DNA from: Actinomycetota bacterium
Lineage (GTDB): Bacteria > Actinomycetota > Actinomycetes > Nanopelagicales > Nanopelagicaceae
NCBI GenBank assembly: GCA_016870795.1
Contig: VGAJ01000006.1
Span: 1 to 43,388, forward strand
DNA length: 43,388 nucleotides
Reading direction: 5' to 3'
Shown: positions 29,894-36,452 of the stretch, one piece after another
Layout of the letters: every line of letters begins with the position of its first letter
Position numbering within the stretch: position 1 is the first letter of the stretch
Program-made: the position numbers and the translations under genes
Notes under the pieces: model-generated
What the model was told of the DNA's origin: nothing
The model's input: the letters and a program-made list of their open reading frames with translations, nothing else
The model's database searches: none

Positions 29894-30091
29894 ATGAGGA
29901 TCACTGAACTTCGCAGAAGATTAACCGCTCACTTCGGCCCGGATTGGGCCCCCTCTTATTCAAAAGATTTTGTAATGGCAGAACTTGGTGGGCAGAGCGT
30001 TGATCAAGCACTTGAAATGGGATTTGAACCAGCTGATATCTGGCGGGCGGTAGTTAAAAATAACCCGGATATTTCAAGCGATCTTAAATAA
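29894..30091 (+). CDS. DUF3046 family protein
   Basis: 65-residue actinobacterial protein of unknown function, recognised by MRITELRRRLTAHFG, the VMAELGGQSVDQALEMG core and the IWRAV segment. In most Actinobacteria it lies directly upstream of recA. Here a reverse-strand P450 gene separates them. The start ATG is 16 bases after the TetR stop. Its 3' end overlaps the P450 stop by 8 bases in tail-to-tail orientation. Confidence 0.88.
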   Translation: MRITELRRRLTAHFGPDWAPSYSKDFVMAELGGQSVDQALEMGFEPADIWRAVVKNNPDISSDLK

Positions 30092-31490
30092 GCTCAAATC
30101 TCATAGCAACAGCTCCCTTAGGGCGATAAGTTGCTCGTGGTTGGGCTGTAGGAAAAGCGCCAGTAAGTGAAAGTCTGGCTCTCCTTGCAATCTCTAAAAT
30201 AATTATTCGCCCCTCAAGCAGGGCAAATTGATCTCCTAGGCACTTTCTACTACCGGCAAGGAATGGGAAATAAGCCCCGCGTGGCAAGCTCTTTTCAAAG
30301 TCATTACTCCATCGCTCTGGAATAAATTCATTTGGAGATGGAAAATACTTTTCATCCCTTTGAGTGACATATTGACTAACTAAAACATGGGCCCCTTTCG
30401 GAATCTCTCTTCCCCCAAGAGTTATATCTTCTAGAGCCCTTCTTGGTGAGATCCAGACTGGGGGAGCAAGCCTTAAAACCTCACTAAAAATAGCTCCAGA
30501 TAGGGGAGCTGCGAGAATAACCCTGGCAAAATCCTCATCTCCTTCTCTAGCAAAAACTTCCTCTGCCTCTTTAGCAAGGTCATCCCAGTACTTAGGGTTC
30601 TGGCTTAAATATGCAAAGGTCCAAGTTAAAACATTTGCCGTGGTTTCATGGCCACTTAAAATTAAAGTTAGAGTTTCATCTGAAATCTCTCTAGCGCTCA
30701 ACTTCTCACCATCGACAGTTTCTGCCTCAAGTAAGACTCCCATTAAGTCATCGCGTTTGACTCCGCTTGCAATTCGCTCATTAACAATCCTAGTTGCAAC
30801 GTTATGGAGCTCATTAGCAGCTTTTTCAAACTTTCTAAAATATGGAATAGGAAGATTATCAAGGCGATCAAGACCTGGCAGCATGGTGCGCTCAATGCGA
30901 TCTATGGCAATGTGCATCGAGTCTTGAACTCGCTTGGTATCTGCAGAGATATCTGTGCCAAATAAAATATCTGCAACGATGTCAAAAGTTAGCGACATCA
31001 TTTCAGGTCCAATGGCTACGACCTGGCCATCGCTCCAATTTGAGATGTGCTTGCGAGTAAGGTTTAGCATCGTCTGGGCATAAGTTGAGATCTTGCTAAT
31101 GTGAAAGGGCGATTGCATCAACCTTCTATGGCGAAGATGAATAGGTTCTTCATTAGTTAAAAGTCCGCTTCCTAGAACTTTTCTCATCCGATCAAAACCC
31201 ACGCCCTTAATAAAGCTTCCCTGCTTGCTCACCGTTACCTCATTGACCATCTCTGGTGAGAAGGCGGTGATAAAGAGCTGGCCTGCTAAAAAGAATGAGC
31301 TGCAATCGCCATATTCGGCCTTGGCATTTAGTAGAAAGGCTGGGGTATCTTTTTGGAATCTAAGGGTTAATAGGGGCGATCTTGGCCCATCAGGAATATT
31401 TAGACCCTTCAAATCTCGCCGCTTTAGAGGCTTTGGCATCGGCGCGTACTCAGCTGGCCGTGGGCTTTGAAAGGGGGCGAGATCAACCAT
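30084..31490 (-). CDS. Cytochrome P450 monooxygenase
   Basis: Heme-thiolate monooxygenase, 468 residues from the chosen ATG, no membrane anchor seen. The heme-binding loop FLAGSRKCLG carries the ligand C417, the K-helix ExxR is in SEVLRLAPP, the I-helix oxygen-activation motif is SGHETT, and FIPERW is the PERF-like segment. The overall style resembles the CYP102/CYP110/CYP120-like class acting on fatty acids or terpenoids, but the substrate cannot be named. No ferredoxin or reductase gene is adjacent. The frame runs 36 codons further upstream, but ATG 31490 is preceded 6 bases away by TACCTT (leaderless layout), and the longer version would include the LexA box. Confidence 0.93.
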   Translation of the reverse strand: MVDLAPFQSPRPAEYAPMPKPLKRRDLKGLNIPDGPRSPLLTLRFQKDTPAFLLNAKAEYGDCSSFFLAGQLFITAFSPEMVNEVTVSKQGSFIKGVGFDRMRKVLGSGLLTNEEPIHLRHRRLMQSPFHISKISTYAQTMLNLTRKHISNWSDGQVVAIGPEMMSLTFDIVADILFGTDISADTKRVQDSMHIAIDRIERTMLPGLDRLDNLPIPYFRKFEKAANELHNVATRIVNERIASGVKRDDLMGVLLEAETVDGEKLSAREISDETLTLILSGHETTANVLTWTFAYLSQNPKYWDDLAKEAEEVFAREGDEDFARVILAAPLSGAIFSEVLRLAPPVWISPRRALEDITLGGREIPKGAHVLVSQYVTQRDEKYFPSPNEFIPERWSNDFEKSLPRGAYFPFLAGSRKCLGDQFALLEGRIIILEIARRARLSLTGAFPTAQPRATYRPKGAVAMRFELI

Positions 31491-31496
31491 GGCTCC

Positions 31497-31502
31497 AAGG
31501 TA
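31497..31502 (-). promoter_or_regulatory. Probable -10 element of the P450 gene (leaderless)
   Basis: On the reverse strand TACCTT is followed by 6 bases (ggagcc) and the ATG at 31490. The -35 region would fall at about 31520-31525, directly next to the LexA box at 31529-31540. Confidence 0.45.
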
Positions 31503-31528
31503 GGGCTCGCGTGTCTTAAAAGTCATTA

Positions 31529-31540
31529 GAACAGATGTTC
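31529..31540. promoter_or_regulatory. LexA (SOS) box between recA and the P450 gene
   Basis: GAACAGATGTTC is a perfect GAAC-N4-GTTC palindrome, the core of the actinobacterial/Gram-positive LexA operator. It lies 140 bases before the recA GTG and 39 bases before the divergent P450 ATG. A TAGACT hexamer at 31544-31549 could be the -10 of a LexA-controlled recA promoter. The site could repress both directions. Confidence 0.75.
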
Positions 31541-31556
31541 GGCTAGACTTATCTCC

Positions 31557-31577
31557 ATAACAGCGGCGAGCTGTTAT
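31557..31577. promoter_or_regulatory. Inverted repeat upstream of recA
   Basis: ATAACAGC (31557-31564) and GCTGTTAT (31570-31577) are perfect 8-base arms around a 5-base centre. Located between the LexA box and the proximal recA promoter. It may be a second operator or an RNA hairpin in the longer recA transcript. No family match is claimed. Confidence 0.4.
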
Positions 31578-31622
31578 ACCCAACCAGAGCGGTTCCACAT
31601 TTCCGCCGACTGCAAAGTCAGG

Positions 31623-31645
31623 CCGTCAGTGGCATTCCGTACCTT
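31623..31645 (+). promoter_or_regulatory. RecA-NDp type DNA-damage promoter of recA
   Basis: CCGTCAGTG, exactly 8 bases, then TACCTT. The published RecA-NDp consensus is TTGTCRGTG-N8-TANNNT. Seven of nine upstream positions, the spacing and the TANNNT element all fit. Transcription would start near 31652, about 28 bases before the GTG at 31680. In mycobacteria this LexA-independent class is activated by ClgR/ClpR, whose gene lies 2.3 kb upstream here. Confidence 0.6.
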
Positions 31646-31679
31646 CTGGAGCCAACTACGAGAGAAGAGAGGCAAGACC

Positions 31680-32765
31680 GTGGCTAAAGAAGCCAAAGAT
31701 CCAAATGAAATAGCAAAACCCTCTGCCGAACGGCAGAAAGCCCTAGATACCGCGCTTGCTCAAATCGAACGTCAGTTTGGCAAGGGCTCAGTAATGAAGA
31801 TGAGCGATCGAACCGCAACTCCAATTGAGGTAATTCCAACTGGATCCATCGCTCTTGATATGGCCTTAGGAATTGGCGGCATTCCACGTGGCCGCGTTGT
31901 AGAAATCTTTGGACCTGAATCTTCAGGTAAGACAACGCTAACTCTGCATGCAATTGCTAATGCACAGAAAAATGGCGGTATTGCAGCTTTTATCGATGCT
32001 GAGCATGCCTTTGATTCTGAATATGCAAAGAAACTTGGAGTTGATATCGATGCGCTTTTAGTTTCTCAGCCTGATACTGGCGAGCAAGCACTTGAAATTA
32101 TGGACATGTTAGTTCGCTCTGGAGCACTTGATTTAATTGTGGTTGACTCCGTTGCAGCACTTGTTCCTCGCGCTGAAATTGAGGGCGAAATGGGAGATTC
32201 CCATATGGGACTTCAGGCTCGCTTGATGTCACAGGCCTTAAGAAAGATAACTGGCGCGCTAAGCCAGACCAAGACAACAGCTATCTTTATTAATCAGCTC
32301 CGCGACAAGATCGGTGTTTTCTTCGGCTCTCCTGAAACCACAACTGGTGGAAAAGCGCTTAAGTTTTATGCCTCAGTTCGTATGGATATTCGCCGTATTG
32401 AAACTCTAAAAGATGGACAAGAAGCGGTTGGAAATCGTACCCGCGTCAAAGTTGTGAAAAATAAGATGGCTCCGCCATTTAAGCAGGCAGAGTTTGACAT
32501 CATCTACGGCATTGGAATTTCTAGAGAGGGAAGCCTTCTAGATATGGGCGTAGATCTTGGAATTGTGAAGAAATCCGGAGCTTGGTTTACCTATGAAGGA
32601 GATCAACTAGGCCAGGGTAAAGAGAACTCTCGCCAATTCCTGCTTGATAATCCTGCTCTAGCTAATGAAATCGAAGGAAAGATCCGGGCTCACTTTGTCG
32701 CGAGCGATATCGATCCAGCTCTAGTTGCTGCAATCGATGAAGCCGCAGCTGATGTCGAGTTCTAA
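31680..32765 (+). CDS. recA: Recombinase RecA
   Basis: Strand-exchange ATPase of homologous recombination and co-protease for LexA. 361 residues from GTG 31680. Walker [10 protein letters not shown] is at 78-86. [22 protein letters not shown] is Walker B plus the start of loop L1, and the L2 region is [31 protein letters not shown]. No intein interrupts it. The frame opens at an ATG at 31629, but that would place the N-terminus within the RecA-NDp promoter and adds 17 unrelated residues. The [21 protein letters not shown] segment sits at the usual distance from GTG 31680. recX overlaps the 3' end. Confidence 0.97.
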
Positions 32766-33249
32766 TTCAGTAGAAGTTGAGAGCGACCCCTACCAAGTAG
32801 CTCAGACCATTGCCCTTATGGCACTTGGTCGAAGGGCAAAAAGTAGGGGGGAGCTCTTTAAACTTCTCAAATCTCGCGGCATTGAAGAAGAGGTTGCAAA
32901 CGCAGTTCTCTTTCGCCTCGCCGAGCAAGGCTTTATCAATGATCATGAGTTTGCTCGCTGTTGGAGTGAATCACGGCAGAGAACCAAGAAGGTCTCAAAG
33001 CGAATAATTAGCGGAGAGCTGCGTTCTAAGGGAATCTCGCCAGAGATAATAGAGTGGATCACAAGTGATATCAGCGATGATGAAGAGTTTGCCAATGCGA
33101 TGACTTTCGCCGAACGTAAGGCGAGAGCAGTTACTAGCCTTGCACCTGAGGTGGCATACCGCAGATTACATGGCGCCTTATCAAGGCGAGGATTTTCTAG
33201 CCATGTTGTCTCTCGAGTATTGGCAGAGCTGGGTATTACAAGAAATTAA
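32752..33249 (+). CDS. recX: Regulatory protein RecX
   Basis: Inhibitor and modulator of RecA filaments. 165 residues from ATG 32752, made of three-helix repeats. [41 protein letters not shown] and the third repeat [21 protein letters not shown] are visible. The start lies 14 bases inside recA. An in-frame ATG at 32725 would deepen the overlap and is less likely. The 3' end overlaps the convergent dehydrogenase gene by 14 bases. Confidence 0.93.
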
Positions 33250-34459
33250 TGTGTTTGGAATTTAATTCCTTTACATTCGAAACGCCTAGCAACTTCATCG
33301 TTCGCTTGATTTCTGTTGCAAGAATTTCAAGAGATCGCTCAACGCCTTGCTGCCCTCCAGCCATCAACCCGTATAGATAGGCGCGGCCCACATAAGCAAA
33401 GTCTGCTCCAAGCGCGAGCGCTGCCACGATATCTGATCCCCGCATAATTCCTGAATCTATGTGGATCTCGGTAGCTCTTCCTACTGCTTTTCGACAGCTT
33501 GCTATTAATTCAAGTGGCCTTGGAGCTTGGTCAAGCTGTCTTCCGCCATGGTTTGAAAGAATAATTGCATCAACGCCTAATCGAGCAGCTTTTTTTGCAT
33601 CATCTACATTTTGGATTCCCTTAACGGACAAAGTCCCTTTCCATTGGGCTCTAATCCATTTTAAATCATCAAAAGTCATGCTGGGATCAAACATAAAATC
33701 AAGCAGTTCGGCCACCGTTCCATTCCATTGCGACATGGAGGCAAATCGCAATTCTGGAGTGGTTAGGAAATTCCACCACCATTCATATTTCGGAGCTGCT
33801 TCAAGTAATGTTCCAAGGGTTAAAGAGGGAGGAACTGTTAATCCATTGCGTGTATCTCTGTGGCGCGCACCAGCTACAGGTACATCAACAGTCAATATTA
33901 AATTTCTTACTCCCGCGCTCCATGCCTGATCAACTAAGGCCATTGACGCTTCTCGGTCCTTCCACATATACAGCTGAAACCAATTTCGACCAAGGGGTGC
34001 TGCGCTAACCACTTCAGAAATTGTGCTAGTTCCAAGCGTTGAGAGCGCAAAAGGAATTCCAAATTTCTCTGCAGCTCGAGCTCCAGCTATTTCTCCCTCC
34101 GCATTCATCATGCGTGTAAATCCTGTCGGAGCAATTCCGAAGGGAAGAGCAAACTTCTCTCCCAGTATTTCTACTGAAGTGTCGAGTTTTGAAACATCTC
34201 TTAAAACATTAGGGCGAAATTCAAGATTTGAGTAGAGCGCTCTTGCTCTTGAAAGCGAACTTTCACTTTCGGCGGCGCCATCTGTGTAATCGAAAGGTCC
34301 GCGAGGAGTCCGTCGTTTTGCAATTTTGCGCAAGTCTTCAATAGTGACAGCTTTGGATAATCTTCGTTTTTTTCCTGAAATAGCAATTTTTTTAAACTTA
34401 AGAGTTTTTGAAAGTGTGATTGGATTTGGGAAAATCCGTTTCAAATTTGGATTAGCCAT
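33236..34459 (-). CDS. FMN-dependent alpha-hydroxy acid dehydrogenase (LldD/glycolate oxidase family)
   Basis: 407 residues, TIM-barrel flavoprotein oxidising L-2-hydroxy acids such as L-lactate, glycolate or mandelate to 2-oxo acids. Y58 in the FDYTDGAAESE segment corresponds to the substrate-binding tyrosine region. The active-site base is H304 in LSNHGGRQLD, and HIDSGIMRGSDIVAALALGADFAYVGR binds FMN phosphate. The first 35 residues are basic and not conserved. It is the last gene of a four-gene reverse operon, 2 bases after the dehydratase stop. In this context it may oxidise lactate formed from the aldehyde end of a cleaved deoxy sugar acid. Confidence 0.9.
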   Translation of the reverse strand: MANPNLKRIFPNPITLSKTLKFKKIAISGKKRRLSKAVTIEDLRKIAKRRTPRGPFDYTDGAAESESSLSRARALYSNLEFRPNVLRDVSKLDTSVEILGEKFALPFGIAPTGFTRMMNAEGEIAGARAAEKFGIPFALSTLGTSTISEVVSAAPLGRNWFQLYMWKDREASMALVDQAWSAGVRNLILTVDVPVAGARHRDTRNGLTVPPSLTLGTLLEAAPKYEWWWNFLTTPELRFASMSQWNGTVAELLDFMFDPSMTFDDLKWIRAQWKGTLSVKGIQNVDDAKKAARLGVDAIILSNHGGRQLDQAPRPLELIASCRKAVGRATEIHIDSGIMRGSDIVAALALGADFAYVGRAYLYGLMAGGQQGVERSLEILATEIKRTMKLLGVSNVKELNSKHINFL

Positions 34460-34461
34460 AA

Positions 34462-35646
34462 TTAGGCTGTGACACTGACTAGAGAACTGGCACGAAATTC
34501 ATCCCGTAGTTTTAAGCCCAGACCAGGGCTTATGCTTAATTTTAACTCACCATTTTCAATCAGGGGCAATCCATCTACTAGATGTGGATACCAGGTGCGG
34601 TAGGAAGACCTGACCGTCTCTTGAATTAAGGCATTTTCATCGGCAGTTGATAAGTGGGCGCCGGCAGTCAATCCCACCGGGCCGGTGCAATCATGAGGGG
34701 CAATCCTTACGCCGTTTTCTTTTGCTAGCTTTGCCATGGCAAGGCCTTCGGTTAATCCACCACACCAAGATAAATCCAAAGTGAGCACATCAATAAGGTT
34801 TTCTCCAACAAGTCTCTCTACTCGCTTTTTACTCGCAATTGTTTCACCGTGTGCAATTTTTGGCATCGAGTTACCTCGAAGAACTCCTAACTCTTCCAGT
34901 AAGTCTGGATAGATGGGATCTTCGACCCAGAAAACTTCAAACTCTTTTAACGCCGACATTATTTCTTTCGCTGCGCTAGGCGACCAAAGTGCATGGAGCT
35001 CAACCATTATCTCCATCTTCTTGCCCACGGCGTCTCTAATCTTTTTAATCGGCTCTAATCCCAACTTCAAGTCAGAAGATGAAATCTCCCTTCCCCAATT
35101 TTTTTCAGCGAGTAAATCAAATGGCCAAATCTTCATGACTGTGATGCCCTCAGACAAGAGCTCGGTTGCCAACTGCCCAGCATCATTCATAAACGCTGCA
35201 AGATCTTCGTATTTACCAGCACCTTGATCTAATCCCCAAGACTTTGAACCCTGGTTTGATTTGCGCATATATTGCACCCCAGCACAGGTGTTATAGATTC
35301 GAAGTTTGCGGGGAGTGTTCCCACCAATTAATTCGAATATGGGCTTGTTATTAAATTGCCCAGCAATATCCCAAAGCGCTATGTCAATGGCAGATCTAGC
35401 TCTGGTCTCAACTCCTGAGCCGTTATATCCAACATATGTAGTAAGAGTCTTGGCTATTTCGTCTCGATTTAGCGGATCCTTTCCCAAAATCGCTGGACCT
35501 GCGAAGTCACTAATGAAATGTGCCACTGTTGAGCCAAAATAATACGTTTCACCTAAGCCTACGATGCCTTCATCAGTGAGGATTTCAACATATGCCAAAT
35601 TGGGAAATTCAGGATGAGAAAAAGGTTTTACTGCAATAATTTTCAC
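34462..35646 (-). CDS. Enolase-superfamily (mandelate racemase-like) acid-sugar dehydratase
   Basis: 394 residues with an N-terminal capping domain (about 1-125) and a TIM barrel. Catalytic residues of the mandelate racemase group are seen: K172 in VMKIWPFD, metal ligands E216 (MVELHALW), E242 (FWVEDPI) and E268 (AHGET), and the general base H318 in APHDCTGPVG. H218 next to the first ligand is also suggestive. Most such enzymes dehydrate aldonates or aldarates to 2-keto-3-deoxy acids. The sugar acid cannot be assigned. ATG overlaps the GntR stop by four bases. Confidence 0.88.
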   Translation of the reverse strand: MKIIAVKPFSHPEFPNLAYVEILTDEGIVGLGETYYFGSTVAHFISDFAGPAILGKDPLNRDEIAKTLTTYVGYNGSGVETRARSAIDIALWDIAGQFNNKPIFELIGGNTPRKLRIYNTCAGVQYMRKSNQGSKSWGLDQGAGKYEDLAAFMNDAGQLATELLSEGITVMKIWPFDLLAEKNWGREISSSDLKLGLEPIKKIRDAVGKKMEIMVELHALWSPSAAKEIMSALKEFEVFWVEDPIYPDLLEELGVLRGNSMPKIAHGETIASKKRVERLVGENLIDVLTLDLSWCGGLTEGLAMAKLAKENGVRIAPHDCTGPVGLTAGAHLSTADENALIQETVRSSYRTWYPHLVDGLPLIENGELKLSISPGLGLKLRDEFRASSLVSVTA

Positions 35647-36452
35647 GATTGCCCCAAATCCACCGAATATTCTTTAAGTGCAGAGCTAAGTATTTCCTCA
35701 ATACTTGAAGTGGATTGCAGTACATCTTTCACGATTCGCTCAGCAATTTCACGAAGTTCGCGATCTAAGTCATTTTTGTAGGAGTATTCAGCCAAATGAA
35801 TATGTTTTGACATAGCTTTTCTGGCGGCTAAACCATCACGATTCTTAACGGCTTTAAGGATTGTGTAGTGAAGGGGAGCACCTTCTTTATAGATTTCTGG
35901 GTCAGATAAACTTCTTAACATGGTGTCAAAAGCCAATGTGGTGATTGAGCCAAACATAATTTGTAGAACTGGATTGTGGGTGCTCTTAGCTAGTAGAGAG
36001 TGAAATGCAATGTCGGCTTGGGCCATCGGGATAAGTCCATTGGCATTATCTAAAGCCTTCAGCGCAAATTCCATCTGCGCAATATCTTCTGTTGTCGCTC
36101 TCTCCGCGGCAAGCGCGGCACATTGCTCTTCTAAATTTCCTCTAGCTTCAATTAGATCTCGGGCGGTGGCTGTGGATTGCCTTATAGTGGTGTGTACGTT
36201 ACGTGCCGCATTTAACATGCTGGGCTTTCTTACATAAACACCCTTACCTGGAAAAGTCTCAATAAGTCCTTGTCGTTGTAATCCAGCTAAAACTTCCCTC
36301 AAGAATAACCTTGAAACGCCATATTCTTCTGCCAAGATTCTAGTTGAGGGCATCAATCCATCTAAAGCTTCTTCGCCAAAAATAAACCGTTCCGTTAAGC
36401 TCTGGGCAAGAGCATCTTGAGTTATTCCAATTCTCTTTTGTAATGCTTTCAC
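35643..36452 (-). CDS. GntR/FadR family regulator with FCD domain
   Basis: 269 residues. The N-terminal winged helix (about 10-80) has LMPSTRILAEEYGVSRLFLREVLAGLQRQGLIETFPGKGVYV. The all-helical FCD ligand domain (about 95-240) has ARDLIEARGNLEEQCAALAAERAT and the histidines usually binding metal near FHSLLAKSTHNPVLQ and HYTILKAVKNRD. FCD regulators in sugar-acid operons typically repress and are released by the pathway intermediate. It is translationally coupled on both sides (ATGA overlaps) and probably acts on the palindrome at 37305-37328. Confidence 0.92.
   Translation of the reverse strand: MKALQKRIGITQDALAQSLTERFIFGEEALDGLMPSTRILAEEYGVSRLFLREVLAGLQRQGLIETFPGKGVYVRKPSMLNAARNVHTTIRQSTATARDLIEARGNLEEQCAALAAERATTEDIAQMEFALKALDNANGLIPMAQADIAFHSLLAKSTHNPVLQIMFGSITTLAFDTMLRSLSDPEIYKEGAPLHYTILKAVKNRDGLAARKAMSKHIHLAEYSYKNDLDRELREIAERIVKDVLQSTSSIEEILSSALKEYSVDLGQS

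Follow-up and report, generated by a model that had tools for sequence, protein, structure and literature searches.

A cytochrome P450 gene next to the SOS box of recA in Nanopelagicaceae, and a putative structured leader of the recA message

Introduction

The question raised by this locus is whether a gene lying against the SOS box of recA has to be an SOS gene itself, or whether the box is the property of recA and the neighbor only a neighbor. The window (the whole stretch of DNA that was analysed, 43,388 nucleotides) is one contig of a genome of 1.05 Mb, 79% complete, of the family Nanopelagicaceae, and the original prediction for it was that a cytochrome P450 had been inserted between DUF3046 and recA, sharing the SOS intergenic region and perhaps being under SOS control. 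The explanation that we hold to be reasonably probable as a whole is that the P450 would have a promoter of its own, that the box would serve primarily recA, that recA would be driven by two promoters, and that the transcript of the first of these would carry a structured leader. If so, the case is a caution that the neighbor of an SOS box need not be an SOS gene, and it is the comparison between genomes with and without the P450 that tells to whom the box belongs.

The locus and the nature of the P450

On the + strand the order is DUF3046, a convergent P450 gene on the minus strand, the LexA box, recA and recX. The DUF3046 gene (29894–30091, +; PF11248, 62.6 bits) overlaps by 8 bp at its 3′ end the end of the P450 gene (30084–31490, −; PF00067, 207 bits, 6e-61), and recA occupies 31680–32765 (+; TIGR02012, 571 bits), so that the profile matches and their coordinates confirm the P450 in the predicted place. 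Directly after recX here, at 33236–36452, there are an FMN-dependent dehydrogenase, a sugar-acid dehydratase of the enolase superfamily and a GntR regulator; most members of the genus have a MiaB/RimO-like gene at this site instead, which makes of it a variable island.

By profile, fold and motifs, 30084–31490 is a member of the cytochrome P450 superfamily. The alignment contains the haem motif FLAGSRKCLG (FxxGxRxCxG), EVLR (ExxR), SGHETT (the acid-Thr pair of the I-helix) and PERW, the first three being almost invariant across orthologues. The best sequence match among solved structures is 3dbg (E 1.3e-51), which we take to be CYP170A1 (albaflavenone synthase), and behind it come 7wzl (titled “putative P450”, = CYP184A1), CYP175A1, CYP51, CYP120 and CYP102; judged by this best match, the protein belongs neither to the CYP102 nor to the CYP120 class, against which a comparison had been proposed. 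By fold, a model with a pLDDT of 71.5 (moderate confidence) comes closest to CYP184A1 with oleic acid (26% identity, TM about 0.78). CYP170A1 and CYP184A1 are thus the closest by sequence and by fold, respectively; unlike the case of these enzymes, neither a terpene synthase nor any other pathway gene was seen linked to the P450, and the scores against the NCBIfam models of albaflavenone monooxygenase (CYP170; 245.4 against a cut-off of 700 bits) and pentalenene oxygenase (217.1 against 800 bits) stay below threshold. That the substrate is a fatty acid or a terpenoid is a guess. A link to carotenoids was considered and rejected, firstly, because phytoene/squalene synthase (PF00494) is found in 189 of 201 genomes, which makes its co-occurrence uninformative, and secondly, because the neighbors of the P450 differ between genera. 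A literature search on P450s of Nanopelagicales returned nothing relevant. The genome has a second, distant P450 (G000:C4:65726–66652, L002), and in G163:C35 (L040) the outgroup-type P450 is present a second time, possibly through contamination (6%).

Distribution and history of the P450

The P450 is present, with at least 69% identity, in 21 of the 24 genomes of the genus (acI, freshwater), and it adjoins recA in every one of them whose contig reaches recA, the same arrangement being found in about 20 separately assembled genomes. The “insertion” of the original prediction therefore holds for the genus as a whole, and not as a trait of a single genome. In G052 (92% complete) the P450 is absent and the order is DUF3046, box, recA; this genome is nested among P450 carriers on the recA tree (support 100/99), and consequently a loss is the likely explanation. 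In other genera the orthologue, 50–55% identical (about 52%), is found at other loci or not at all, and no gene neighbor is consistent across genera. The P450 would thus be an orphan monooxygenase gene, stable in its lineage, which would have arrived between DUF3046 and the control region of recA in the ancestor of the genus.

The start of the P450 and its putative promoter

The predicted start of the P450, at 31490 (ATG 31488–31490), is upheld by the relatives, since this ATG is kept in all of those compared (around 20), while a start at 31526, flush with the box, runs into an in-frame stop just downstream in L010 and L022, and in L011, L012 and L014 the spacing takes it out of frame. A start at 31598 was also discarded, as it encounters stops or frame breaks in relatives and the reading frame would have to cross the recA leader.

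Before this ATG, on the minus strand, there is a candidate −10 element, TACCTT (31497–31502), 6 nt away from it, and a candidate −35 element, ATGACT (31521–31526). The whole arrangement, that is, the box, TA, ATGAC[T/A], 17–18 nt, TANNNT, 5–6 nt and the ATG, is repeated in 24 of 24 loci (15 distinct sequences), when the background of TANNNT at 5–6 nt is 1.5% of the ATGs in the window. Within the −10, TA and T are invariant and the three bases between them vary, as a promoter would predict, and the −35 motif is missing from G052, which has no P450. Moreover, those orthologues at unrelated loci of other genera that were checked mostly keep the same TANNNT at 5–6 nt from the ATG, which suggests that the P450 transcript is probably leaderless, beginning at the ATG itself. 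The P450 would then be transcribed away from recA by its own promoter, the −35 of which abuts the LexA box of recA.

To whom the LexA box belongs

The LexA box, GAACAGATGTTC, lies at 31529–31540, 2 bp away from the −35 of the P450, so that the predicted sharing of the SOS intergenic region is real, and genus-wide; the geometry that had been given also comes near: with a leaderless start the box would span about −39 to −50, as against the 27–38 bases that had been estimated. At the level of the genome, the pattern GAACNNNNGTTC has 16 sites in 1.05 Mb as against 28 for the reversed pattern, without enrichment, and therefore the number of boxes was set aside as evidence and only conservation counts. 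The box is found at recA in essentially every genome of the family that was checked, which shows that it is not there by chance. The comparison that had been proposed, between relatives with and without the P450, gives the same answer on both sides: the box is retained at recA where the P450 is absent (in G052, locus L069, and in other genera), and the orthologous P450s that are not beside recA have no LexA box close to their start. In other words, recA has a conserved box overlapping its promoter, in a genome with a lexA gene that bears a box of its own, and the P450 has a box at its promoter that does not accompany it independently of recA. Because recA keeps it whether the P450 is there or not, the box can be ascribed primarily to recA, and the effect of LexA on the P450 would be at most that of a bystander.

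Such an effect is possible. The expected −35 of the LexA promoter of recA (P2), 17 bp before its −10 TAGACT (31544–31549, +; conserved in position among relatives), coincides base pair for base pair with the 6 bp of the P450 −35 (31521–31526) on the opposite strand, and, with the box 2 bp away and upstream of the P450 −35, LexA could hinder the polymerase there by partially blocking this element. This side effect would not be the reason for the location of the P450.

The alternative to be taken most seriously, even if we consider it unlikely, is that the P450 truly belongs to the SOS genes, in which case LexA bound at 31529–31540 would block sigma region 4 at the −35 and damage would derepress the P450 and recA from one operator. 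The box at 2 bp from the −35, with a geometry kept in 24 of 24 loci, and the presence of lexA in the genus speak in its favor; however, the box is equally conserved without the P450, the orthologues at other loci have none near their start, and it lies upstream of the core promoter. In Escherichia coli, uvrA and ssb are divergent genes that share one LexA operator, and the P450–recA region resembles such pairs in having one SOS box between divergent promoters, but here only the dependence of recA has the support of conservation. The search for literature on P450s controlled by LexA yielded nothing relevant.

Distinctly less probable is the converse, that the P450 promoter is of importance chiefly for recA, with mutual exclusion of the polymerases at the shared −35 setting the basal level of recA. 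The −35 positions do coincide on opposite strands; against this, recA is controlled without any P450 promoter in G052 and in other genera, and the −35 of recA is a weak one, perhaps unused.

Inside the spacer between the −35 and the −10 of the P450, upstream of the recA box, there is an element GCGTGTC (31509–31515, +), which most recA regions have at a distance of 9–24 nt from the box, whether a P450 is present or not. Its spacing is of about 10–14 or about 20–24 nt, i.e., one helical turn apart, and in g17 it often reads GACACGC.

The two probable promoters of recA

The preferred explanation, with the P450 as a neighbor of a box that is primarily that of recA, leads to the control of recA itself. 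In mycobacteria the LexA-independent promoter of recA has the consensus tTGTCRgtg-8 nt-TannnT (PMC5656591), and it is used by PafBC, beside a LexA promoter (PMC11804915). In the window, a candidate promoter of this PafBC/RecA-NDp type (P1) can be recognized at 31625–31645 (+), GTCAGTG-8 nt-TACCTT, which fits the consensus save in the first two letters (CCGTC here as against tTGTC); forms with TGTC occur in some g17 relatives and in g10 and g6. Apart from recA, the exact PafBC-type pattern is found in this genome only next to the box of lexA, and a pafB/pafC-like pair of adjacent WYL-domain genes is present (G000:C1:15528–16668). Thus, recA would be driven from the LexA promoter and from a PafBC-type promoter some 95 bp downstream of it, with transcripts predicted to begin at about 31556 and about 31652, respectively. 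This order, together with lexA and the WYL pair, is that of mycobacterial P1/P2, and would extend the two-promoter control of recA to the dominant freshwater actinobacteria. The differences from mycobacteria are that in this genus the divergent P450 abuts P2, and that P1 has gained a complementary arm on its upstream side, with which it forms a conserved hairpin in what would be the P2 transcript.

Promoters of the PafBC type or near it also lie beside a LexA box at G000:C40:2126–2166 (L283) and G000:C1:156160–156194 (L048, L284), one next to lexA and one preceding a dnaE-like operon, with the same layout as that of recA; the match at the dnaE-like locus is a near one. In g17 (L083, L104, L107, L164) a second promoter, TTGTCAGTGG-N7-TANNNT, overlaps or abuts the LexA box, and would be an additional PafBC-type promoter for recA.

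The proposed hairpins of the recA leader

The new part is a conserved hairpin over this second promoter. It extends over 31584–31649 (+; R1 match at 31578–31653, 84.5 bits), with a helix P1, CCAGAGCGG/CCGTACCTTCTGG, a helix P2, CCAC/GTGG, and a variable apical helix, and in the alignment of the interval it appears downstream of the box as the conserved stretch CCAGAGCGGTTCCAC...GTCRGTGG-N7-TACCTTCTGG. Its 3′ strand is the PafBC-type promoter itself, and the hairpin would therefore be the PafBC promoter sequence paired with a complementary upstream arm.

In 77 distinct leader sequences 95% of the cells pair, and 10 of the 20 pairs have changes on both sides; none of 500 shuffles reached as high, and structures slid along the alignment were only 25–50% paired, so that the helices covary beyond chance, as in structured RNAs. 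The outer helix changes from CCAGA/TCTGG to CCCGA/TCGGG in g8 and to CCTGA/TCAGG in g16; in g17 it is the middle helix that covaries, and the apical helix is nearly free in sequence yet paired. Most of the A3 leader sequences had been retrieved with an exact pattern that spans portions of the two arms, and hence the invariance within A3 is in part a product of selection, from which the set fetched by recA is exempt. The hairpin is found in 133 of 151 genomes of the family, normally once in each; among the 80 named records, in all those with recA inside the fetched stretch, it directly precedes recA and shares its strand, with the LexA box 35–98 nt before it. Among 396 genomes of the phylum outside the family there was no credible match under strict filters, the lone one (G549/L110) falling inside an ABC transporter gene and being discarded as chance; the pattern is absent from viral and phage contigs, Rfam 15 gave only chance hits and none above the gathering score, and the literature on recA leader RNAs provided nothing relevant.

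A second hairpin, specific to the genus, is formed at 31557–31577 (+) by ATAACAGC-GGCGA-GCTGTTAT, with a stem of 6–9 bp and a loop of 5 nt. It shows compensatory changes in relatives and sits where the transcript of the LexA promoter is expected to begin. This transcript would carry both hairpins, and the PafBC transcript neither.

The idea that the whole motif is a riboswitch was abandoned, since its 3′ half is a promoter of the PafBC type, which in g6 and g10 occurs at recA by itself, the upstream (left) arm, and with it the hairpin, being absent. Genomes with and without this arm are the two sides of one branch of the recA tree (support 83/83). The leader is like the structured leader RNAs of Rfam in being a 5′ leader with covarying helices, and unlike them in that no terminator or stem sequestering the ribosome site was recognized in it. 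A role in the stability or the translation of the message would be the most likely, distinguishing the recA message made in the SOS response from that made through PafBC. That the LexA-promoter recA mRNA of Nanopelagicaceae begins with a hitherto undescribed structured RNA that has the PafBC promoter as its 3′ strand, and that the SOS and PafBC transcripts differ by a regulatory hairpin, is a proposal we regard as evenly poised between right and wrong. It would be a concrete and testable candidate for RNA control of a central DNA-repair gene, and, if true, a single stretch of DNA encodes a damage-inducible promoter and, at the same time, an RNA element tuning recA.

The inverted repeat could instead be a palindromic operator in the DNA, with a regulator on both arms, given that its 3′ arm is a promoter and that paired changes would arise in a DNA palindrome too; however, the apical helix keeps its pairing with an almost free sequence, the length of the loop differs between genera, and the arms are asymmetric, with a bulge of 4 nt on one side only, all of which makes this very improbable. 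Chance or an artefact of assembly, for which only the control-level number of boxes in the genome could be invoked, is of negligible probability, being refuted by the same arrangement in the separately assembled relatives.

Lastly, the recA regions of eight records (L143, L144, L156, L180, L186, L188, L209 and L220) are of the Nanopelagicaceae type and carry titles of Bifidobacterium breve, Clavibacter or Streptomycetaceae, names that look mis-assigned.
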